Source: Selaginella tamariscina (taxonomy: Eukaryota; Streptophyta; Lycopodiopsida; Selaginellales; Selaginellaceae). From it: DNA of 64,000 nucleotides. This document shows, piece by piece, positions 14,633 to 64,000 of this stretch; the stretch's first letter is position 1; each line of letters opens with the position of its first letter. Under the pieces are notes generated by a model. It was not told the origin of the DNA and made no database searches. It was given only the letters and a program-made list of their open reading frames with translations. The stretch lies in contig PUQB01000040.1 in NCBI GenBank assembly GCA_003024785.1, positions 533,880-597,879 of the forward strand, written 5' to 3'. The position numbers and the translations under genes are program-made.

Positions 14633-14996
14633 TGTCACGAGGGCGAAACCTTTAAAACAAGGATGGAACCTTGAAAAGAGGAGATTATATTCAAGAAAGA
14701 AATGAATACAAAATGAAACACAAGGCCGAAGATTGGTGTTGAATAATTCTGAGAAATCTGGAACTGGAACCCTGTTTATATATCTGAGGTCTTGAGAATT
14801 GTGTGGTCCACAACTGGTCTGGAATGTGTGGTCCACAACTGGTCTGGAACATGCATATGAATATACGCTTTGCTGTTGATGGTGTAGTTCAACATCCAGG
14901 ATCATACAGACCAGTTGGTTAACACATGTGTGTGTTAGTCAAAAGGTCTCGGGTTCAAGTCTTATGAAAGGCAAAAAATAATTTATGATCTTTACA
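14633..14996 (-). repeat. 3' LTR of family-B element
   Basis: The 364-bp LTR begins TGTCACGA and ends TTTACA on the plus strand and is a close match to 21125-21499. It contains a short internal duplication (TGTGTGGTCCACAACTGGTC twice in a row). Immediately inside it the minus strand reads GAAGGGGAGATAG, a polypurine tract (about 14997-15011). Confidence 0.92.
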
Positions 14997-16760
14997 CTAT
15001 CTCCCCTTCGATGAAGAGCACTGCGCGTCACTAGTCCAGGTTTTGCAGGATATCGTTGATGGAACTCGGCAACTGGTCCAGGTTTTGCAGGATATCTTTG
15101 ATGGAACTCGGCAACTCGGCAACAAGATCAAGAGCATTAACAAGATGAGCAGCAGGCTCCCAAGTGCGTTCACCAGGTGGATAACCGATCCAGTCCACGA
15201 AATAGTGACAAGATGAGCTCCATGCTTGGGAGCGTTCACCAGGTGGATAACCGATCCAGTCCACGAAATAGTGAAGCTGACCATGAACAAGTTTGGAGTC
15301 AGGATATCGTTGATGGAACTCGACAACAAGATCAGGAGCCTCCCCCTTCGATGACGAGCACCGCGCGTCACTGGTCCAGGTTTTGCAGGATATCGTTGAT
15401 GGAACTCGGCAACAAGATCAGGAGCATGAACAAGATAAGCAGCAGGCTCCCAAGTGCGTTCACCAGGTGGATAACCGATCCAGTCCACGAAATAATGACA
15501 AGATGAGCTCCATGCTTGGGAGCGTTCACTAGGTGGATAACCGATCCAGTCCACGAAATAGTGAAGCTGACCACGAACAAGTTTGGAGTCAGGATATCGT
15601 TGATGGAACTCGACAACAAGATCAGGAGCCTCCCCCTTCGATGACGAGCACCGCGCGTCACTGGTCCAGGTTTTGCAGGATATCATTGATGGAACTTGGC
15701 AACAAGATCAGGAGCATGAACAAGATGAGCAGCAGGCTCCCAAGTGCGTTCACCAGGTGGATAACTGATCCAGTCCACGAAATAGTGAAGCTGACCACGA
15801 ACAACTTTGGAGTCAAGAATTGCAGCAACCTCGAACTCAGGTTCACCAGCAACTGTAACTGGAGGAGGTGGTGGAAGAAGTCTGATGGAACTCGGCAACA
15901 AGATTAGGAGCATGAACAAGATGAGCAGCAGGCTCCCAAGTGCGTTCACCAGGTGGATAACCGATCCAGTCCACGAAATAGTGACAAGATGAGCTCCATG
16001 CTTGGGAGCGTTCACCAGGTGGATAACCGATCCAGTCCACGAAATAGTGAAGCTGACCACGAACAAGTTTGGAGTCAGGATATCGTTGATGGAACTCGGC
16101 AACAAGATCAGGAGCATGAACAAGATGAGCAGCAGGCTCCCAAGTGCGTTCACCAGGTGGATAACTGATCCAGTCCACGAAATAGTGAAGCTGACCACGA
16201 ACAAGTTTGGAGTCAAGAATTGCAGCAACCTCGAACTCAGGTTCACCAGCAACTGTAACTGGAGGAGGTGGTGGAAGAAGTCTGATGGAACTCGGCAACA
16301 AGATCAGGAGCATGAACAAGATGAGCAGCAGGCTCCCAAGTGCGTTCACCAGGTGGATAACCGATCCAATCCACGAAATAGTGAAGCTGACCACGAACAA
16401 GTTTGGAGTCAAGAATTGCAGCAACCTCGAACTCAGGCTCACCAGCAACTGTAACTGGAGGAGGTGGTGGAAGAAGTCTGATGGAACTCGGCAACAAGAT
16501 CAAGAGCATGAACAAGATGAACAGCAGGCTCCCAAGTGCATTCACCAGGTGGATAACCGATCCAGTCCACGAAATAGTGAAGCTGACCACGAACAAGTTT
16601 GGAGTCAAGAATTGCAGCAACCTCGAACTCAGGTTCACCAGCAACTGTAACTGGACCATGAACAAGTTTGGAGTCAAGAATTGCAGCAACCTCGAACTCA
16701 GGTTCATCAGCAACTGTAACTGGAGGAGGTGGTGGAAGAAGTCGGCCAGGTTCAGAAGGA
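14997..16760 (-). repeat. Tandem array of integrase chromodomain segments
   Basis: On the minus strand the chromodomain core (HYFVDWIGYPPGE) occurs ten times, with copies near 15177, 15240, 15465, 15530, 15755, 15952, 16018, 16156, 16352 and 16547. The upstream piece that starts the chromodomain (EPEFEVAAILDSK) occurs five times, near 15820, 16220, 16415, 16610 and 16680. Units are about 196 bp, with 66-bp sub-duplications (in frame) and a 70-bp one. Because 196 is not a multiple of three, the reading frame changes from unit to unit and the copies lie in several overlapping frames. Only the first copy, in the integrase frame at 17155-16439, is joined directly to the enzyme. The array grew by repeated duplication. 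Confidence 0.93.
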
Positions 16761-21124: not shown

Positions 21125-21499
21125 TGTCACGACCTTGTGCAAAGGGCGAAACCTTTAGAACAAGGGTGGAACCTTGAAAGGAGGAGATTGTATTCAAGAA
21201 AGAAATGAATACAAAATGAAACACAAGGCCGAAGACTGGTGTTGAATGATTCTGAGAAACCTGGAACTGGAACCCTATTTATATATCTGAGGTCCTGAGA
21301 ATTGTGTGGTCCACAACTGGTCTGGAATGTGTGGTCCACAACTGGTCTGGAACATGCGTATGAATATACGCCTTGCTGTTAATGGTGTAATTCAGCATTC
21401 AGGATCATACAGACCAGTTGGTTAACACATGTGTGTGTTAGCCAAAAGGTTTCGGGTTCAAGTTTTATGAAAGGCAAAATATAACCCATGATCCTTACA
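21125..21499 (-). repeat. 5' LTR of family-B element
   Basis: The 375-bp LTR is nearly identical to 14633-14996 apart from an 11-bp difference near its start and scattered substitutions. I could not identify a convincing tRNA primer site just inside it (about 21100-21124 on plus). Confidence 0.9.
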
Positions 21500-23790: not shown

Positions 23791-24061
23791 GGATGTTCAA
23801 GAAGCATGGAAGAACAATGGATAGACATGTCATTGCTGACATCATCTCTAGAGCTTAGTTAAATGCATTGTCTCCTTCAAATTACAAAGCTGGATTTGAT
23901 CACCCAACAACAACATTTCTAATAGAAAATTGGGCTGCTTCAATGCAATTATCTCGAGCAACTTCAACAACACGAATAAATAATACAACAAAGTATAAAA
24001 TAATACGTACAATCTTGGAATAACTCCCCACTCAGATGCATGTAACTAGAGCGTGACTTGT
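23791..24061. other. Region upstream of the PPR gene
   Basis: This is AT-rich and holds no gene. It should contain the promoter of the PPR gene at 24062, but no TATA box or other element could be assigned. Confidence 0.4.
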
Positions 24062-26217
24062 ATGGCGAAGTATATATGGTGTATAACCGGATTCGTGTGC
24101 GAGCAGCGAGCACCATACCAGATGACAAACATACGCCACCCTCGTACGCCAATGCAACGCACTCTCAGAAGCCAAACGCTTACACACACACAGATCATCA
24201 AAGACGGCTACTTCCAATCCAGCGTTTACTTGGGCAACCTCCTCATACAAATGTATGGCAACTGTACAAGCGTGTCCGATGCAAAGTCCGTCTTCGACCA
24301 CCTCCCACACCGTAACAAATACTCCTGGAACATCTTCGTCTCAGCATATGCCCAGAACGGGCAAATGCAGGAAGCGAGACAGGCATTCGATAGAATGCCA
24401 TCCCACGACATTGTAGCATGGAATACTGTGGTCTCTCTACATGCCCAGAACGGAGATATCAGCGGAGCAAGGAGAGTCTTCGATCGGATGCCGGAGAGAA
24501 ACACAGCATCGTGGAATGTAATGATTCAAGCATATGCCCAGAATGGGCAAATGCTTGCAGCCAAGAGTTTCTTCGACGGCATGCGTTCTCGAGATGTCAT
24601 CTCCTGGACGACCATGATGGCTGCGTATGTTCAATACGGGCATTTCGATGAGCCCAAACAGATGTTTGAGTTCATTCCCCATGTGAATCTTATGGCGGGG
24701 ACCGTCATGGTTCAAGCATTTGCTCAGAGAGGGCAGCTCACTCAAGCGAAGGAGCTATTTGATTCGATGCCGGAGAGAGATGGTATCCTCTGGAACGTCC
24801 TCATTGCTTCATTCTCTGGTAGCACCGGGTTCCAGAATGCAAAGATGGCGTTCGATGTCATGCCGGAGAGAACCGTGGTCAGCTGGAACTCGATGATTCA
24901 GGCGTTTGCAACGAGCGGCTCTTTCGACGAGGCCAAGTCTTGGTTCCGGCGGATGCCGAAGAGGGACCTCTTCTCGTGGAACGCAATGATGCAGGTGCAC
25001 TCCGTGAACGGGGAGCTCGAAGAAGCATTACGCGTGTTTGGTACCGCTCCCGAGCGGGACGTCGTGTCGTGGAACACCATCCTGCAAGCGTTTACCCAGA
25101 ACGACACACTGAAGGCCGTCGAGGAGACCTTCGAGAGGATGCCGCAGAGGAACCAGATCTCCCTCAACGTCATGATGCAGGCGTATGCGCTCAACGGACG
25201 ACTCGACGAGGCGAGGAAGTCGTTCGACTCGCACCCCGGACACGACGAGATCGCGTCCAGCCTAATGATCTCCGCATATGCACAAAGAGGGGACATTGAC
25301 AAGGCGAGGAGTGTCTTCAACATGTCCAACCGGCAGCAGGACCACATTGTCGCCTGGAATGCGATGCTGTCCGGGTACGCACAGACCGGCCACAGCAAGC
25401 TCGCCGTCGAGCTCTTCCGGCAGATGGACCTCGAAGGCGTGAAGCCGGACGCTGTCACGTACATAAACATCTTTGATGCATGCTCCCGTTTGGCTGCAGC
25501 CGAGGACGGCTCGGTCTTCATATCGAGCATCCTGGAAGTCCATATGCTCCAGCACGTCACCGTGGGGAACTCGGTTCTCACCATGTACGGCAAGTCCGGA
25601 CTTGTTGCCAAGGCGAGGTCGGCCTTCGAGCAGATGCCCGTCCGAGACTCCGTGTCGTGGAACGCAATGCTTACTGCATATGCTAGAAACGGACATGCAG
25701 ATGCTGCCTTGGAGCTGTTCAACTATATGGAGCTCCACGGCATACCGCCGGATATAATCACGTTTCTTAACGTCATCTTTGCCTGCAGTCACGCAGGTTA
25801 CCTACACAGGGCGCGTGGCTACTTCCTGTCGATGGTCGGGGACTACCAGGTTCTGCCTATCTACGACCACTATGTATGCATGACAGACTTACTTGCTCGG
25901 GCTGGGCGCTTGCTTGATGCGGAGGAGCTTGTAAACACCATGCCGTATGAGCCGAACTACGAGGCGTGGATGGCGTTGTTGTGTGCGTGTAAGAGCCACG
26001 GGGACGTCAAGTGCGGGAAGCGAGCGGCCAACTTCTTCTTCAGGGCGAGCGTTCCTGGCGGTTTGAGTCTCCTTACATCATTCTCTCGCAGCTGCATGCG
26101 GAGGCTGGCAACCAGGACGATGTTCTCGAGGTGCGGAAGGCAATGAGGTATATCAAGGAGCTCCAGGTTGCACCTGTGTCTAACCCACAGATTTCACGTC
26201 CGCTGCTCAACCTCTGA
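24062..26217 (+). CDS. Intronless pentatricopeptide-repeat (PLS class) protein with frame break in E motif
   Basis: PLS-class PPR proteins bind organellar RNA base by base, usually to guide C-to-U editing in chloroplasts or mitochondria. I chose the ATG at 24062; in-frame ATGs further in (near 24125 and 24152) are alternatives because the first residues look poorly conserved. About eighteen tandem motifs are visible. Most are 31-residue S-type units with the signature W-N-x-M-x-x-A-Y-A-Q-N-G and F-D-x-M-P-x-R-D, and a classical P-L-S series follows near 25340-25900. The main frame ends at 26146, but the conserved E-motif end (SPYIILSQLHAEAGNQDDV) continues in the next frame to the stop at 26217; one base seems missing near 26045-26065. 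No DYW deaminase domain follows. Neighbours give no functional hint. Confidence 0.92.
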
Positions 26218-52813: not shown

Positions 52814-52885
52814 GGAGGTATAGCTCAGTGGCAGAGCAATCGGCTGCAGTCCGATAGGTCACTGGTTCGATCCCGGTTGCCTCCT
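52814..52885 (+). tRNA. tRNA-Cys (GCA)
   Basis: The cloverleaf folds fully. Acceptor GGAGGTA pairs with TGCCTCC, D arm GCTC with GAGC, anticodon stem ATCGG with CCGAT around loop CTGCAGT (anticodon GCA), and T arm ACTGG with CCGGT. The discriminator base is T, as expected for tRNA-Cys. CCA is not encoded, as usual for a nuclear gene. Box A and box B sequences for RNA polymerase III are in place. Confidence 0.97.
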
Positions 52886-53675
52886 TGGTCAGGTTTGTTA
52901 TTTTTTGTGTCACATCTTTTGGTGTTTTGTAATGATTTCATATGACAAATCACATTGTCTTCTTTCAAGTTTTTCTATTTAATTTTACCTAGTTTAAATG
53001 AACACCATGTATTCATATAACATATAAAATATATAAACACGAGACAAGTACTTGAGTTGCAGTACAATGGAGATATACTCAAGGACTTTGTTCCCATTAA
53101 AGTCCCATCACAATATATTCCACAATATTTAACTCGATATGCTCGAACCTTCCGTATACAACACGCTAAGAGATATAACTATATATATATTTTTCCATAA
53201 TTAACTAATCTCTTCGGAGTTTGCGCTAAGTACCTGTTTATTAATTTATACTATTTAATTAATTTAATTAGTCTCTCTGGAGTTTAATTAAATTGCGTTA
53301 ACTATGTAACCCCGTGCATGTGCAAACAAATGCAACACGTGGCATAATCATCTTAATTATCATTTAATTAATCATATCAAGTTAACCACTAGTACGACGT
53401 GTGAAACGAAGAGCATGAATAGGACATGCAGCCATACGTGTCCGCCTCCACGCTTCTAGATACACACATTTCTATAGATAATATACACATCCATATATCT
53501 TATGTATACTATAATAAGGACCACATTAAATGCGTTCACACAAGTCAAACTTTACACGGAAAAAAATATATATTTGCGTAACCCACAATCCTCCAATTAC
53601 ATGTGCCTTACTGCATCCACAGTCCCTCTGTATATAATCAGTTCCCTTAGTACTGAGGAGGAGAATGGGCTACAT
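52886..53675 (+). promoter_or_regulatory. Upstream region of the CASP-like gene, duplicated elsewhere
   Basis: From about 52950 this non-coding DNA matches 56478-57103 with good conservation. Shared blocks include the ATGGAGATATACTCAAGGAC segment, the AACACGTGGCATAATCATC piece and the segment just before the ATG. An ACACGTGG G-box-like word is present near 53334. Conservation between the copies and its position point to the promoter of the CASP-like gene. Confidence 0.6.
52900..52906 (+). terminator. Likely RNA polymerase III terminator of tRNA-Cys
   Basis: A run of T residues begins about 15 bases after the tRNA end, the usual type of pol III stop signal. Confidence 0.55.
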
Positions 53676-54564
53676 ATGAAACAGAGGCACATCCGACTAA
53701 GGGGGCGCGGTTAACCCGGCTAAGCCAGGAAGACTGAGCAAGATAATCGATCTGTTCCTCGTATTGCTGTTGTGGTTCTCACTATAATAGTCATCGCTGT
53801 GATGGTTAATGCCAAGCAAACCAAGTTGGTGCTAGTGCTTCCGCAGGTGTTTGCGTCGCTTAAAGCCAAATGGCAAAAACTCTAAAGCATTCGTGTAAGC
53901 ACGTCTCTGTGTGTGTGTGTGCGTGCGCCGAGCGTGCGTGTGTGTTTAATTCCTTGTTTTTTTTTTTTAGTGCTCTTGTGGTGGTTAGTGCAATATGTCT
54001 TGCTTACTCGTTTATTCAATTTATTGCTGCAATTCTCCGTCTGGGCTCTGGAATGAATAATAGGCATGTATATGATTACCTTCATTGCAGATCAGGTAAA
54101 TATCACACACTCATATGTATGTTATATATGTGTGTGTGTGTGTGTATTCAAGAGACAGAGAGAGTTTTATAGACATGAGATTTGTGTTAAGAGTTGTCTG
54201 ATACGCACAACATACATGTCCTGTAGTGAAATCTGTATATCTGTAGTTTCTCTACAACTCATAAATGTATGTGTATTCAGTTCATCGTAGAAGACACACA
54301 CACACACACATTCTGGCAAGAGTTTTCTTATTGAGAGACACACAACACCGAAAGATGTATGTGTTCTCTCTCTCTCTCTCTCCTCTCTCTCTCTATATAA
54401 TATATATAAAGTCATCTGTTCTCTCTCTCTCAGTCCTCTGTAGTTTTGTCGTACAATTCGTAAATGTATACAGTTCATTGTATACACCAAGAAGACACAC
54501 ACACACACATTCTGGCAAGAGTTTTCTTATTGAGAAGACACACAACACCGAAAGATGTATGTGT

Positions 54565-55470: not shown

Positions 55471-56477
55471 TTAACTTCCGTAAATGTGAATTAAACTTGA
55501 CTTGAAAAACCTTATTTAAAAATTATATTTAATATAATACTAAACTTCATATATGTGATGTATCAAAATATATTTATAATATTACTATATCTAAGGTTCT
55601 TATCTACGTGGGTACCGTAAATTACTCTACCAGGAACCATACTATAAAATCATATAAACAAAAATAAAAATCCTGTTATCTTGGTCTCATGTTATTCAAT
55701 AGTAAAATTAATTATATAATGTCAGTAGTTAAATCTTGTTTTTTTACATTTAATTAATTAAACATTTTAAGAGGAATTCAATTAAAACAAGGGGGTGACC
55801 ATGTAACAAGTCCCATTATCCTTTTTAATCTTATATATAAAATATACAAATGTACATATGATTTTATAAATAAGGAAAAATTTATATTTATATCCTAAAA
55901 TTTATCATGTTTACGTATGTACTCCTAGAAGTTTTATATTTACATATGTACCTCTGAAACTTCAATTTAACATTTCATAAATTTTAAAATTAAAAATTAA
56001 AAATTATAATAATTTATATTTTATTATATGTAAGTCCAAAATACAACAAACATATAATTATATTTAAAAATATTATATTTTTACTACGACAATTTTTTGA
56101 CATTTAACATTTAATAAACTTCAATTATTTCATTTGCAATAAATTATGAATTAAAATATATTTTTAATTAATATTATTATTTTAAAAATTGAAAATAATA
56201 TATAAATTTAAAACTTTTAAAAAGGTATATATAAATATAAACTTCTAGGGATATATATAATATAATAAATTTTAAAGGTATAAATGTAATTTTCCTTATA
56301 ACTTTCAATAGTAAAGTATAGCTTAATTTTATTTTATCAGATTTTAAGGAAATTTGTTTTTTTTGGTTTGTTTATTCCTTTATAAAAATATAATATATAT
56401 ATATATATATATATAGTATCTTATATTAAACAATATATTTTATATTTTAAATTTTTTATTAATATAATCTATTACAT
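55471..56477. other. AT-rich spacer
   Basis: Very AT-rich, with a (TA)n tract near 56391-56414. I see no gene, RNA or repeat family in it. Confidence 0.5.
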
Positions 56478-57103
56478 TACATATCACATTGTTTCTTTCA
56501 AGTTTTTATTTTATTTTAACTATTGTCAATTACTTTCGAATTTAAATGAACACCATATTAAAAGGAAAATAATATATATGTATTTATATAACATATAAAT
56601 ATAATTGGAGTACAATGGAGATATACTCAAGGACTTTGTTCCCGTTAAAGTCCCATCACAATATATTCCTCCTATACAACACGCTAAGTATATTATATTT
56701 CCATATTTAACTAATCTCTTCGGAGCTTAACTAATTTGCGCTAAGTACCTGTGTATTAATTTATATTATTTAATTAATTTTATTAGTATCTACTGTCATC
56801 TCTGGAGTTTAATTAAATTGCATTAACTACGTGTATACTCCCGTGCGTTTGCACACAAACAAAACACGTGGCATAATCATCTTAATATCGTTTAATTAAT
56901 CATATAAGTTAACCATACACACATTTTCTATAGATAATATATGTATACTATAATAATAAGGACATTAAATGCGTTCACACCCGTCAAACTTTGCACGAAA
57001 AAGAACTTATATTTGCGTAACCCGCAATCCTCTGATTACATGTGCCTTACTGCATCCACAGTCTGTCTGTTGAATACAGCAGTTCCCTTAGTACTGAGGA
57101 GAT
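56478..57103 (+). repeat. Second copy of the CASP-like upstream region
   Basis: Collinear with about 52950-53675, with several small deletions. The shared G-box-like word (AACACGTGGCATAATC) is kept near 56864. It continues directly into the truncated coding copy at 57104. Confidence 0.85.
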
Positions 57104-57318
57104 ATGAAACAGACTAAGAGGGGCACGGTTAACCCGGCTAGGCCAGGAAGACTGAGCAAGATAATCGATCTGTTCCTTCGTATTGCTGCTATGGTTTTCA
57201 CTATAATAGTCATCGCTGTGTGATGGTTAATGCCAAGCAAATCAAGTTGATATTAGTGCTTCCGCAGGTGTTTGTGCCGCTTAAAGCCAAAATGGCAAAA
57301 ATGCAAGTTGTAACTAAA
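57104..57318 (+). pseudogene. Truncated CASP-like copy (exon 1 only)
   Basis: It is the duplicate of exon 1 of the gene at 53676. It reads well from MKQTKRGTVNPARPGRL through the first membrane helix but has a two-base insertion (GTGTGATGG against GTGATGG) that introduces a stop after the helix. The copy ends soon after the LKAK motif, and no exon 2 or 3 is found before the next gene. It is a non-functional fragment, useful for judging the frame breaks of the main copy. Confidence 0.88.
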
Positions 57319-57800
57319 ATGGGCATGGCTATAGTCCCATTTCCTAATAATTAACAATTTTAGCTATTTAATTAGCATTTTCTAATATTAAAGGAATATT
57401 CTTTAGAATATATGTTTGAAAAGAGAATATTCTTTAGAATATTCTATTTTGTATTATACCCTTTAATAAATTATAGCATTCATTGAACAAAAATTAATAA
57501 CATTATAAAGTAGAATGTATTAAATTATATAATATATTGCCTAATATAACAATTAAGGAAGAGCATAAGAGGTACATTATATAAATATTGATGTTGTTAT
57601 TAAAATATTAATATTTAATATAACATTATTAATTAAAATTTGTAGTGTAATAATATATATATAAATCCTATAATAATATAGTCAATCTTCCATATCATTT
57701 TTTAAATTTATATAGTTAAGTTACAATTTGGTACTATTATTAAAGAGTTTATAATATTATGAATATTAAATATATGATATTTTATAATTTTGTAATTGCT
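57319..57800. other. AT-rich spacer 3' of the transposase-like gene
   Basis: It holds a short inverted motif built on GGAATATTCTTTAGAATAT near 57389-57450 and A/T tracts. No terminal inverted repeat matching the other side of the transposase-like gene could be found by eye. Confidence 0.45.
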
Positions 57801-60800
57801 TTAAGCTTCAGAAAACATACATTCCCTTGCAGTTTTGTTAATCGTGACTTTATCAACGCTTCTTGACATCCACCCATATCGAATGGATTTAACATTTATA
57901 AAACATGCTGGGTCTTTTTGATTGGGAGACCATGTTTTCTCTAGGCATCCATTATATCTTTCGCTCTCCTTCTCGTGTCGCCTTTTTTGTGGTTTGAACC
58001 ATGCAACCTTAACAATACTATTTTTTGTGATTACTTCAGGTGTGTCGATAATTTGACCCATCCAAATAGGCTGATTATATGACGCATCTGGAGTAATGAG
58101 AACCATCATTAGTTTTTGAAGATCCTTGCAGCAATCAAAGTATGCTTTAGGTTTTTGGTTCCTTTGTCCAACAAAGTGTGGGGTTTGCACTTCCACATCA
58201 CTACTGGCTTCTATGTCGTCTATGCTCAGTGATGTCATTTCAATCTCCTCTCGCCACCTTGTTTTAGGCCAGAAAGGGTGTTGCAATTCTGTACTTGTGA
58301 CAGTAGGCCCTTCCAACTCTCGAACAACAGTCTCCCAATAGTTGACCACATGCTTATATAGTTCTGAGTAACCAGTTGCCTTATCAGAATTCTTTGGCAT
58401 CGATTTTTGAACCCATGCCACATATTTTTTGATGCCATCAATAATAACCTCTTGTTCCTTGAGCTGGGCACTCAATGGAATAGGGTCTGGTTGTCCTTCT
58501 GGGAGAAGTGGCTTTTCCTCTCCACTTTTGAAGAGCATTAAGCCCTCTTTCGGTAACCACTCCTGCTCTGATGGCCGTAACTTGTACTGCATAATAGGTA
58601 TACCATCTCGTATGGAGAAAAAGAATTGTAGCGGCACAAGGTGACCAACTAAAGAATCACTCCCTTCTTTTATATACTCCTTGAGAAATTTTTTGAAGTC
58701 TGGCACCTCAGTCACAAGCAAAGCACAACTTTTTTTGGAGATGCAATTTTCAAAAAGATTCATCATATGCGGTAAGGTAAGTGCACTTGTCCTTTTTGTA
58801 GAGTTGGAGACCTTGCTGAAGAACGCATCAATATCTTCATGAGTGTGACCAACCATAAGGAAACTGAGCGTGATTGTTTCAAACACACCTTTGGCAACAA
58901 GCATTGACAAGTATGCTAGCACATATCTAGAAAATAAAAGTAAGTATGAGCTTGAGAAACCCTTAAGTAAAATGATTTACCTATTTTTGTTCTCGCCTGC
59001 ACAATTATCCATCTGTAAAAGCAAATGACGAGGAAGCTTATTTGATGTTGAGGACACATGTACACTATTTGAGCTAGATCCCTCCACTGAACCTGAACTC
59101 TCAACAGGGCCATCTGTTTTTTGTGCAGGTTGCTGACAATGCCTCTCATATTCCCAAGTAGCCTCAAGTGCAGACGTGTTCATGAGAGCATTATGTAAAG
59201 GTTGAAGGTGTTGTTTCTTCACTTTGAGATCACTGATAGGACTTGTCTGTGAGTGGGCTTCAAGGTTTCTGAAACACATGGCTAACGACCCAATAGTGAA
59301 ATTGGAGTCGCTAGACCAATGTGGAAGTGAAAAGTGTCCATATGACTCACAACCGTGTCCATGTGTTAGCACACCTGTTAAAGAAATCGGAAGTTTCATG
59401 ACATTTCCAAGGCACTTTGGTGTTGCAAAGAGCTTTGGAATGCTGGTCTTTGAATGATCCATCTTGTCATGGATCAAGCACAGGTACTCTGATGGGCGTG
59501 ACACAGAAAGCATGCGGTGTGCATAGTACTGAGACCGACAAGTTTGTTGTGCAATCATGTGGGCCTCCATCTTCCTTTGAATGGTAGTGATCTCCACCAA
59601 GGTTTTTGCACAAGCCTCTGCAGCCTTCAATGATGTACAAGTGTCACACTTAGAAAAGCTAGAGTGTTTTGCAATCTCCACATCCTTAAAATGAGTATTC
59701 CATATGTTGTTGAAGGTACCAGTGCAGATTGCTTGGAGCCCCATCAAACTGAGGCACTTGTTCACATGTTCACACAGTTTCAATTGAGTGTAGATTGAAG
59801 GTAAACCTTGAGATTTTCCCTGACCCCTGCATTTGTGGTTCGGCATTTGTGAGGCATCCTGTCTGCATTTGCTTCCACAAAAGCCTTGAGTATCTCTATG
59901 GCTGCCATGATGTGAGAGCGGGTTTTGACCAAGCCAGTGTTCCCATGAACTGAGGTTCGCGCTCCATCAGCCACTCATCCTCGACGGTAGAACGTGGTCT
60001 TTGGGATCCGTATATACTGTACCAAGCTTTGGCAGATGGCCTTATTAAATCCATGGTGTACTTGATAACCTGTGTCCGAGGCCATTCCATCAATACACCC
60101 AGTTAGTGCAGCATATACAAACTCATGCCTTTGCTTTTGGGTGAGCATACGAAAGACATGTCTACATTGGGTAATTTCATTCCGGTCTGCCATCTGACAA
60201 CACTTCTTCTTGCAACAGTCAATCGTGGAAATGCTCGTAACACTTTCGGAAGATGTAGGATCCATCTTTACCCTCTTGCTGAAACTTGCAGGGGAAGATC
60301 TACAACCCATGAATCGCCTTTTTCTTACAATAGGACCAATGCAAGGAACCTCTTCAAATATGAGTTGTTCTTCCGGGTTGTTATTATTGAAATCCAACCC
60401 AGAATATGTTGAACCATCTTGCCGTCTTAATTCAGATGTTCGCCACCTCACGAGGGATCCAGGATACAATGTGCCATTAGGTGAAACCTCTGTCACAACT
60501 ACACCCACGAAGTCGGACCCTAGTTTCTCTTCTGACACTGCTTCCATTGGATTTATAGCTGTGATGATGCCTCTTCCGACTTCAATCTCACGAAGAAAGA
60601 GAATCACCTCATCCATTACAGCAGGCAAGCCATCATCTGGTAAACTCGTGCTACTATTTGTTTGTGACTCTGCATATTTTGTCAGCCTTGACTTCATCCA
60701 AATTCCACAATACAGGAGAACCCTCCTCAAATTCCATTCCCAGAACCTCAACATGCTTGAAATGGTGTTCACCCATACGTACACACAAGATCCTTGGGAA

Positions 60801-60901
60801 ATATTGTGACATGATGCATTATTATCTCGAACTTCCACAGTTCCAGTGCCAACTATCTCGTTGTTCCGAAGAAGACATACTTTATCTCCAGTATTAAACA
60901 T
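57801..60901 (-). CDS. DDE-transposase-like protein (DUF7869-type), with one 54-bp intron and two breaks
   Basis: Exons are 60901-58981 and 58926-57801, joined across a clean GT-AG intron (58980-58927). From the ATG at 60901 there is an N-terminal region with GTGTVEVRDN and a middle GSLVRWRTSELR part, a Cys-rich patch (CCKKKCC), a CxxC pair (KCDTCTSLK), LIHDKMDHSKT, LLLQMDNCAGENKNR and VGHTHEDIDAFFS. The last three carry conserved acidic residues and resemble the DDE-like core of proteins with the DUF7869 domain, found in animals, mosses and lycophytes. The frame has an in-frame TGA at 59975-59977 and a one-base frame break near 59810, where one extra T would restore continuity. A mobile-element origin is inferred from motifs only; no enzymatic role is proven. 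Confidence 0.72.
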
Positions 60902-61054
60902 ATTGTCCTGCACATAAATAATTGTATTATTTATGATATCTGTTTATGCAATATTTTAAGAAATCTGAATTACGGTTACTTAATAATATGCATATGCAAT
61001 AATACATAATTATGTTTAGAGATAATATCTCATGTTTGATTAATACAACTGATG
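60902..61054. other. 5' flank of the transposase-like gene
   Basis: The sequence directly upstream of the ATG forms a consensus acceptor on the minus strand (GTGCAG before 60907), so the ATG exon may be preceded by an intron. Otherwise the stretch is AT-rich. Confidence 0.4.
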
Positions 61055-61967
61055 GGCGGGATTAATCCCGCCCACGAATCCCTCCGACGAGGAACGGTCG
61101 GCGGGATTAATCCCGCCGCCGACTCAACCCCTTCGGAGAGAGTCGGCGGGATTAATCCCGCCTTGGACTCCCTCCGACAAGGAAGAGCCGGCGGGATTAA
61201 TCCCGCCGCCTCTTCCTCCTCGGGGGGTCCGGCGGGATTAATCCCGCCGACTCTCTCCGACGAGGAAGGGAGTCCGGCGGGATTAATCCCGCCGCCGACT
61301 CAACCCCTTCGGAGAGAGTCGGCGGGATTAATCCCGCCTTGGACTCCCTCCGACAAGGAAGAGCCGGCGGGATTAATCCCGCCGCCTCTTCCTCCTCGGG
61401 GGGAGTCCGGCGGGATTAATCCCGCCGACTCTCTCCGACGAGGAAGGGAGTCCGGCGGGATTAATCCCGCCGACTCATCCTCGCCGGAGAGAGTCGGCGG
61501 GATTAATCCCGCCGGACTCCCTTCCTCGTCGGAGGAAGAGGCGGCGGGATTAATCCCGCCGGCTCTTCCTTGTCGGAGGGAGTCCAAGGCGGGATTAATC
61601 CCGCCCACAATTCTTACGACGGGGAATGGGTGGCGGGATTAAACCCGCACATAACTCTCTCCAAAACTATGATTTCAAAGAGATCTCGGGATAAATCCTG
61701 TCCCCAAATCTTTAAAACAGGGAAGTGGTGGCGAGATTAATCCCGCCACCCCTTCCCTGCCTCCTAAAATGGTTGGCGGGATTAATCCCGCCGACAACTC
61801 TTTCTAATAAATTCTGGTAACTCTTCATCAGTTGAGAAGGTTATCGACGGGATTAATCCCGCCACTCTTTTTCAGTGGCGGAGAAGCATTGCCCGGGAGA
61901 TGGTGGCGGGATTAATCCCGCCACTTCTTCAAAGAGGCGAAAAAGAAATGGCCGGATTAATCCCGCC
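61055..61967. repeat. Array of about 20 copies of the 18-bp palindrome GGCGGGATTAATCCCGCC
   Basis: Fifteen copies are perfect (starts 61055, 61100, 61145, 61190, 61231, 61276, 61321, 61366, 61409, 61454, 61496, 61543, 61588, 61775, 61905) and five are imperfect (61632, 61686, 61730, 61846, 61950). The first thirteen follow each other at 41-47 bp, mostly exactly 45. Spacers are GC-rich and related to each other (GACGAGGAAGGGAGTCC type) in both orientations. A 176-178 bp block (61118-61275) is repeated at 61294-61453. The array lies in otherwise very AT-rich DNA. The palindrome reads the same on both strands, so both strands contain long open frames with G-G-I-N-P-A repeats; I do not consider these coding. 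Function unknown. Confidence 0.98.
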
Positions 61968-62904
61968 GCCCCGGTTAACCTAGAATATTAAGTTAAAAGG
62001 ATATTTAAACGTGATAAATCCCTAACGGAATATATTATAATCCTAATGCATTTCTAAACCCTAAAATTGTAATTTTAAGAGAGAATGTAAGAGAGTGAAT
62101 CTTAATAAGTATTTTTAAATTTGTTTATAATACTTACTTGTAAACAGCACTGAAGGCGCCGTGCTTTCCTATAAAGAATAGCACCCAATTTAATCTCGCT
62201 CCTGAGATGATCACTATGAAGAAAAAAGAAGATCTAAAGAGTGAAAAATACAGAAATGAAGAAACCCTTGCCGGAGAAAGAACCAGATCTGAATTTGAGT
62301 GGGAAATTAAATGCATTTTCAAATTTACATGTCAGACCGACAATACATATGTCAGAAATTCAAATTTTTTAAAAAGAACAGAAAATAAAATTTAAGATGA
62401 GTTGACACAAATATCCGACACTCTGACATATATACTCTCCAGTTCCAATGAGTATTTTAAAATTGCATTTAATGTTATTCAAGTGATTCAAGCTGTTTAA
62501 TATTACGAAATTTTAGACTATATTCTACATTCTTAGTATTCAAGTATATTTATATTATATATATATATATAATATATACTTATACAATAAATAAATTGAT
62601 ATATTATTATGTATCATTTAAAATATATTCATAGTCTGTTTATTATTATTATTTTCTTAATTACTCGAGTATTTAGTTTTCATTTCCTAGTATCAATGGG
62701 ATATTCTTTAATATTTTATTAATATTTGAAGAATATTCTAATATTAAACCTGATTATCATAATTAAATTAGTCTTGTTCTTAATTATTGCAGTAATTATT
62801 CTACATTTGTATATATTAATGGGATTTTCTCAATTAATTTGTTATTATTTCAAGAATATTCATGTGTTAAACCTTATTATCAATATTAAATTAATACACA
62901 CTAT
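61968..62904. other. AT-rich region right of the palindrome array
   Basis: On the minus strand a strong donor (ACAA before GTAAGTATT, exon end at 62138) lies at the end of a more GC-balanced stretch (62140-62330). It could be a 5' exon of the transposase-like gene, which would place the palindrome array in its intron. A GAATATTC-rich segment begins near 62695. No other gene is seen. Confidence 0.35.
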
Positions 62905-63340
62905 GAACATATTTTAAATTATACATAATAATACATCATTTTATCTAATATATAGTCATATATAGTTTTAATAATATATATATTAATATCATTTCCTTAA
63001 TTACTTGAGTAATTAATCTTCTTTATATTAATGGGATATTCTTTATTATTTTCTTATTATTCCAAGAATATTCCAATATTAAACATGATTATGATAATTA
63101 ATTTAGTTAATTATTTGAGTACTTAATTTACATTTGTATATATTAATGGGATTTTCTCAATTAATTTCTTATTATTTCAAGAATATTTCAATGTTAAACC
63201 TTTTTATCAATATTAAATTAATATATATTATTAAAACTATATATGGCTATATATTAGATAAAATCATATATTATTATGTATAATTTAAAATATGTTCCTA
63301 GTGTGTTTATTAATTTTATTTTCTTAATTATTCGATGTTT
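62560..63340. repeat. Degenerate direct repeats around the MITE-like element
   Basis: Segments such as TTTGTATATATTAATGGGAT.. TTTCTCAATTAATTT occur twice (about 62802 and 63132). TATGTAT-ATTTAAAATAT-TTC followed by TAGT-TGTTTATT also occurs twice (about 62608 and 63275). The second of these overlaps the MITE arm, so parts of another copy seem to precede the element. Confidence 0.7.
62905..63296. mobile_element. MITE-like element with about 80-bp inverted repeats
   Basis: The arm 62905-62987 is a near-perfect reverse complement of 63217-63296, differing at a few bases. The arms enclose about 230 bp without coding capacity. Small size, long terminal inverted repeats and AT richness fit a foldback or MITE element. 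A target duplication could not be defined with confidence. Confidence 0.8.
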
Positions 63341-63570
63341 GTTTTGCACACATATATAAACACAATCATAAATTTACACACGCATTACAAGAACTTACAA
63401 AAACACATATGCACACACATGCACAACCCTAAACCAAACTGAAGAAATAGGTTGCTTCTTTATTGAAAACATCATGTTCAACGCATGTATGATATATGTA
63501 CTCAATCTGTGTACTGTATGTAACACATTGAATTTACATGTGTAATATTTATATTAAGCTTGTTGGGAGC

Positions 63571-63600
63571 AAACCCTAAACCCTAAACCCTAAACCCTAA
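63571..63600. repeat. Interstitial telomere-type repeat (CCCTAAA)4
   Basis: Four perfect tandem units of the plant telomere heptamer are seen. The stretch is far from any visible chromosome end in this window and may derive from repair with telomeric DNA or be a promoter-type telo-box cluster. Confidence 0.9.
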
Positions 63601-64000
63601 TATGTAACACAATGAATTTACTCATGTAATATGTATGTATGTCTGTGTGTATACACGTGTGCATGTATATATGTGTACTCTGTATGTATATATGTGTACT
63701 ATGTATATATGTCTTCTCTCATACATACACACCATGCATGATCCATGTTAATATGTACTGTCTCTCTTCTCTCAAACATACACACCATGCATGATCTATA
63801 ATATGTACTCGGTCTCTCTAATATTATGTACTAATATGTATGTATGTCTGTGTGTATAATACACACCATGCATGATCCATATTAATATGTACTGTCTCTC
63901 TTCTCTCATATACTATGTATGTATATCTGTGTATAATATGTGTAAGTATATATGTGTACTAATATATGCAATGTGTACAAAAATAATTTTTCAACACTCT
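63601..64000. repeat. Imperfect tandem repeats at the right end
   Basis: A unit containing ACACACCATGCATGATC, TTAATATGTACTGTCTCTC and ATATGTATGTATGTCTGTG recurs about three times, with TG/TA microsatellite parts. No gene is present; the region continues beyond the window. Confidence 0.7.

Follow-up and report, generated by a model that had tools for sequence, protein, structure and literature searches.

Palindrome arrays upstream of two divergent genes in a high-copy DNA transposon of Selaginella tamariscina

The window, which is the whole stretch of DNA analysed here, comprises 64,000 nucleotides of the Selaginella tamariscina contig PUQB01000040.1 (positions 533,880 to 597,879). Its last part belongs to a large DNA transposon that carries a transposase-like gene of the DUF7869 family and, upstream of this gene, an array of an 18-bp palindrome (Table 1). 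The DNA around it is of plant nuclear type: a PPR gene lies at 24053-26146, its named relatives among the matches listed are land-plant proteins, and the highest identities among the best 120 of 5,328 matches are to two Selaginella moellendorffii fragments (49-50% over 68-74% of the query). Elsewhere in the window the same 25-bp tandem pair occurs at 14800-14849 and 21303-21352, 6.5 kb apart and on either side of a gag-like frame, which would suit a position in the two LTRs of a Ty3-type element. Nested tandem repeats with periods of 42, 69, 196, 290 and 400 occupy 15030-16724 and overlap several long open frames.

Table 1. Features of the transposon and its insertion site, in window positions.
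Feature	Position	Strand	Details
Palindrome array, DUF7869 side	61055..61967	.	20 copies of GGCGGGATTAATCCCGCC, 15 perfect; most 41-47 bp apart
DUF7869 (PF25273) transposase-like gene	57801..60906	-	Start codon at 60901; reading frame broken in the window copy
Short intron inside the DUF7869 domain	58927..58980	-	GT..AG, 54 nt; deduced from frames and homologues
Putative leader (5' UTR) intron, holding the whole array	60908..62137	-	Donor ACAA/GTAAGT, acceptor TGCAG/GACAATATG
AT-rich stretch towards the second array	61968..64000	.	327-bp tandem repeat, 2.3 copies, at 62581-63335
Transposon, part within the window	57301..64000	.	Runs on to window-equivalent 72001 (read in L055)
Terminal inverted repeat, DUF7869 end	57301..57327	+	ATGCAAGTTGTAACTAAAATGGGCATG; far-end partner alike at 24/27
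4-bp target-site duplication (TSD)	57297..57300	+	AAAA; second copy directly after 72001
Paralogous empty site	53866..53890	+	GGCAAAAACTCTAAAG; one A more than the filled site implies

The initial annotation of this DNA had counted fifteen perfect and five imperfect copies of the 18-mer, and the count was borne out. Allowing up to three mismatches, a search of 61055-61967 returned 19 matches (15 perfect, three with one mismatch and one with two), compared with none in 100 shuffles; the twentieth copy, at about 61685, is degenerate, with five mismatches in one register. The step between copies, given in the initial annotation as mostly 45 bp, is exactly 45 bp in 10 of 19 cases and 41-71 bp in the rest. 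The idea that neighbours would occupy nearly the same face of the helix fails, because at 10.5 bp per turn a 45-bp step comes to 4.29 turns and leaves neighbours offset by about 103 degrees. The spacers are, as had been stated, less strictly kept than the palindrome: spacer similarity is 73% (49% when shuffled) over the first twelve units, where the palindromes are 100% alike, and 50% (44% when shuffled) over the seven units of the tail, where the palindromes are 86% alike. The array is homogeneous at the end towards 61055, the gene side, and decayed at the end towards 61967. Read as its reverse complement, the spacer after 61543 is identical to those after 61145 and 61321, as would be expected if recombination or a switch of template had taken place between palindromes. 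In the window copy the CpG observed/expected ratio is 1.12 in the array as against 0.41 in the adjoining gene.

The exact 18-mer occurs 27,128 times in the S. tamariscina genome assembly (300,702,823 bases, 1,391 contigs), and 59,903 times when up to two mismatches are allowed; the reversed control gave zero. Eleven loci around palindrome clusters on one contig, C1, served as a sample. One of them used as query (L047) aligned at length with eight of the ten others; of the remaining two, L049 includes an element end, and a relative in L048 is 77-88% alike. Six of six further DUF7869 copies, chosen from the matches to profile PF25273, have 9-16 palindrome sites (up to four mismatches) upstream of the gene; in one of the six, L075, which has 12 sites, none is perfect. 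With one small exception, in L049, the sampled 18-mer loci belong to one DNA transposon family, so the array is no free-standing satellite. For these loci an independent satellite is rejected on the long alignments and on the arrays in all six added copies; of the hairpin-forming satellite once proposed, the satellite part fails, the array in the sampled loci being a transposon component. Almost certainly, then, the array is part of a high-copy DNA transposon. This comes close to what, according to the initial annotation, would refute its reading, namely that the 18-mer is the core of a known satellite or transposable-element family; the transposable-element family is there, but the literature searches gave nothing to show that it is a known one. 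They turned up no published account of the 18-mer or its first 13 bases, nor of DUF7869 or the string GHTHEDID, and the results listed by a search on Selaginella transposons showed nothing on the palindrome.

The element end in L049 is at L049:3813; about 1.3 kb beyond it, outside the element, a lone exact 18-mer lies at L049:2486-2503. Another exact copy, in an IMG/VR contig (L001:146-163), is probably a chance match. A viral or bacterial origin was rejected on finding no paired 18-mers in genome_contigs and no DUF7869 relative in viral_contigs.

The window copy is 14,701 bp long and extends about 8 kb past the window, with 2,500 bp of N in L055; the reckoned full lengths of three copies are 13.6, 14.4 and 14.7 kb. 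A scan of the window alone found no terminal repeats because the far end lies outside it. Both ends were read in 14 copies, namely the window copy, two further C1 copies and 11 others chosen for having a left end and a DUF7869 match 10-14 kb apart among the matches listed. Near-identical inverted ends were present in the 13 copies other than that in the window, although in one of the 13 the left end is damaged. Among the 32 loci whose alignments cross the gene end, 30 lose their similarity at the DUF7869 end within 57296-57311, usually at TTACAAC(T/A/G)TGCAT, and the other end is the same repeat inverted. An exact 4-bp TSD flanks eight of the 14 copies, five have no clean one, and the left end of the last is damaged. 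The window also preserves an unoccupied relative of the insertion site, in a duplicated stretch (52899-53879 and 56436-57301, pieces 74-83% alike) of which the first member gives the empty site and the second is interrupted by the transposon; the flank beyond 72001 is colinear with the empty-site paralog at 83-85% over about 330 bp. A tRNA-Cys gene (52814-52885) lies near this duplication. In its terminal inverted repeats, TSD and empty site the element is like a cut-and-paste DNA transposon. Its left ends, searched genome-wide with up to three mismatches, number 926 + 919 (about 1,845), and the control gave 0.

Two features of the assembly touch on these copies. Two element copies read N over exactly 2,500 positions, at L055:1-2500 and L043:2-2501, which may represent a fixed-size assembly gap or withheld letters, and part of the window copy's second array may lie inside such a run. 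Two DUF7869 copies on contigs C102 and C235 (L020 and L021) have common sequence beyond the element end, which reflects either segmental duplication or redundant assembly.

Pfam profile PF25273 matches two exons of the window gene (E = 1e-26 and 2.9e-13), and in copy L050 the long exon is open over 659 codons. The genome contains at least 300 matches to this profile, a lower bound from scoring 150 of 4,249 first-look candidates, and several have open frames of more than 1,000 codons. At E ≤ 0.001 there are 167 DUF7869 relatives; most of the 120 listed are unnamed, and those named come from moss (Physcomitrium is among those listed), liverwort, molluscs, sea urchin, sponge and Chromera. D327, D367 and D369 are the same in all of 39 homologues, and D169 is kept in at least 90% of them, as the acidic residues of a DDE/D-type catalytic core would be. 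Among loci with an array on the DUF7869 side, a splice-like donor is present in nine of nine and an acceptor in eight of nine, and the array probably lies inside a leader intron of the gene.

The element also has an accessory gene, divergent from the DUF7869 gene. Loci that include both gene starts have a palindrome array upstream of each, the two arrays being about 3.0-3.6 kb apart; both are present in six of the 11 C1 loci (L040, L044-L047 and L050), at distances of 2,981-3,637 bp. The second array of the window copy is mostly lost in the N run, with three sites near it, none perfect. Comparison of the two arrays over 280 sites with up to four mismatches, from 10 loci, gave palindromes 88.5% alike and spacers 48.8% alike, against 47.6% when shuffled. 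Steps of 44-46 bp are the commonest in both, making up 57 of 103 and 75 of 106 steps of up to 60 bp. The occurrence of one palindrome, set in unrelated spacers, in two upstream regions is our main argument that the palindrome itself is used, and on this sequence pattern it looks functional. The recurrence lends indirect support to two earlier proposals, that what counts is the palindrome and not the spacer and, within the same limit, that the array is a candidate protein-binding platform.

Within the accessory gene, 1.6-1.8 kb from one of the two arrays, there is an isolated palindrome-like site, GGCGAGATAAATCCCGCC, with two mismatches; it was seen in seven loci, namely L041, L044, L045, L046, L047 (411-428), L050 (198-215) and the window copy.

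The joined accessory-gene query had no homologue in the protein database at E ≤ 0.001. Near the end of the gene a NIF (CTD phosphatase-like) domain scores above the Pfam cut-off (L055:6767-7669, E = 6.2e-9) and was possibly captured from the host. By eye, two further stretches stand out, one ParB-like (RPLNQERVAELMEKM .. YYIISGQHTITAAQRL) and one resembling the SAM-binding motifs of methyltransferases (WVFDYCTRGSVLKECY .. VFAVEKD, L055:5446-6261). Searches for a ParB match in Pfam, PDB sequences, the protein database, PHROGs and NCBIfam, and by tblastn of phages and plasmids, gave none, nor was there a DNA methyltransferase match in Pfam, NCBIfam or PDB. Backed by no profile, the ParB assignment is not adopted and stays a lead, which was kept because a Sola1 transposon of Ectocarpus is described, in the portion of the report consulted, as having an opposite-strand ParB-like and methyltransferase protein (PMC12477816).

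The arrangement of the two arrays suggests that they are platforms of binding sites for a trans-acting, probably element-encoded factor that controls both promoters, in the manner of the VANC proteins of VANDAL transposons; to this overall reading we give about an even chance. Each palindrome would be a dimer-binding site made up of two 9-bp halves. A single factor, most likely encoded by the element, would bind densely over both promoter and leader regions, and the bound factor would keep both genes expressed or shield them from silencing, as VANC does for VANDAL. Array length would turn over by unequal exchange and by flipping of palindrome-bounded segments. The factor and its effect on the element are a slightly weaker proposition, a little short of even. 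No DNA-binding domain was confirmed in either the DUF7869 gene or the accessory gene. One specific version, that the accessory protein is ParB-like, perhaps with a methyltransferase-like half, and that the palindromes act as parS-like loading sites over both promoters to mark or protect the element, is suggested by the motifs picked out by eye and seems doubtful. Giant algal transposons are reported to have ParB-like accessory proteins, and for these the palindrome would, if this version were true, be a candidate DNA target.

The arrays could instead be functionless minisatellites that arose in each leader region and were kept alike by unequal exchange and bursts of transposition. Several observations would fit this: the number and order of sites differ between copies, the homogeneous gene-side end of the window array looks like a recent expansion, one of the spacers repeats others in inverted form, and perfect palindromes may owe their preservation to homogenisation rather than selection. 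In sites with one or two mismatches, moreover, 102 of 166 changes are C-to-T or G-to-A (shared descent not removed), as in silenced, decaying DNA, and this decay would fit methylation of silenced copies. Such passengers would not be expected, however, to have one palindrome in common between two arrays with unrelated spacers, and in the old tail the palindromes outlast the spacers; homogenisation of whole units would keep the spacers too. We therefore consider an origin without function rather unlikely. Another possibility is that the palindromes are sites for a host transcription factor, E2F-like (GGCGGGA) or of GGATTA type, which the element borrows for its expression, for example in dividing cells. 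The sequence resemblance, pointed out in part in the initial annotation, and the position of arrays upstream of both genes would both suit this. The palindrome is nevertheless longer than an E2F or GGATTA-type motif, and the T-rich flank of the strict E2F consensus is absent; borrowing of this kind appears unlikely.

The palindromes might also act in RNA or at the transposition step. If the array is transcribed within the putative leader intron, in which it lies, its RNA could form long duplexes that supply small-RNA pathways or influence splicing. Predicted RNA folds reach -692 and -722 kcal/mol, where sets of 20 shuffles averaged -376 and -393 (z = -34 and -46), but any palindrome array folds strongly. 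Compensatory change of the arms shows no excess: among 91 distinct site types 22 have changes in both arms, against a rough expectation of about 19, and 10 of these 22 are complementary. The A/T core is also better kept than the G/C arms, a comparison confounded by C-to-T decay. The hairpin of the initial annotation is therefore physically possible, but its arms do not change in step beyond expectation, and we regard a role as an RNA hairpin as quite improbable. Arrays of motifs that bind transposase are known in other DNA transposons, and the palindromes could be repeats of this subterminal kind, needed for excision. Here, however, the arrays lie away from the ends, at 3.75 kb from one of them in the window copy and about 5.1 kb from the opposite one in the copy C1:1804k, so that a subterminal transposase array is very unlikely. 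The reading we prefer is binding by a trans-acting factor.

The identity of the sequence is plain, that of a high-copy transposon; what is unusual is that two divergent gene starts each have an array of the same long, perfect palindrome, whose mechanism is deduced. In the sampled loci a palindrome of which the genome has 27,128 exact copies can be linked with a single transposon family and, within it, with the upstream side of either gene, which provides a candidate binding site and a list of two candidate genes for a system of transposon self-recognition. If the factor is encoded by the element, the system would be analogous to VANC with a different motif geometry, and its CpG-rich sites would offer a natural assay of how a plant silences or spares such arrays.

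Among known systems, bacterial ParB-parS pairs a short palindromic site with a dimeric binder. The element is similar in having such a site and, as predicted here, such a binder; copy number and setting differ, and the putative ParB domain here is a motif recognized by eye. Transposons of the Sola group have a TSD of 4 bp, and the TSD length of the present element agrees with this value in 8 of 14 copies. CACTA (EnSpm) elements have CAC..GTG termini and a TSD of 2-3 bp, and VANDAL/MULE elements a MURA-type transposase and a TSD of about 9 bp. With termini ATGCA..TGCAT, DUF7869 instead of MURA and a 4-bp TSD, the element was assigned to neither. For some EnSpm elements, one published source likewise gives CAC..GTG termini, with a 3-bp TSD.

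Kinship with Sola1 is possible. Sola1-1_Ec32, a giant Sola1 of Ectocarpus, has opposite its transposase an accessory gene for a ParB-like and DNA methyltransferase protein, and its authors suggest that proteins of this kind may bind to the transposon that encodes them and modify it, according to the part of that report available (PMC12477816). The present element is likewise a large DNA transposon with an opposite-strand accessory gene and, by eye, a ParB-like motif; it differs in that its ParB- and methyltransferase-like motifs are without profile support and in having a NIF phosphatase domain. The excerpts of the Sola1-1_Ec32 description make no mention of palindrome arrays (PMC12477816), and those of five other sources give no TSD length for Sola (PMC4455052, PMC10294476, PMC12730594, PMC6875170 and PMC5753468). 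A review table, also seen in extract, lists Sola1 in Physcomitrella (PMC9033089), which together with the DUF7869 relative in Physcomitrium gives a lead, and only a lead, on Sola1 kinship.

The nearest tested analogue of the palindrome-array element is VANDAL21 of Arabidopsis with its protein VANC21. In the accessible portions of two reports, VANC21 binds a 9-bp motif, with arrays of it in introns of two genes, VANC21 and VANB21, and upstream of a third, VANA21 (PMC5735166), and RNA-directed DNA methylation is aimed at regions overlapping the motif arrays (PMC10398659). The same portions describe a multi-gene DNA transposon with dense arrays of one motif, peculiar to the element, that lie in introns and upstream of its own genes and that grow and shrink by tandem duplication (PMC5735166, PMC10398659), all of which resembles the present case. 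The differences are that the motif of VANC21, YAGTATTAY, is nine bases long and occurs in one orientation, as given in the excerpted text (PMC5735166), where here there is an 18-bp perfect palindrome, and that here the transposase domain is another one, the TSD has 4 bp and the accessory gene is one for which no homologue was found. The placement of motif arrays in introns and upstream of the element's own genes, described for VANC-type systems in the same excerpts (PMC5735166), was found here as well, with the intron predicted from splice-like sequences.
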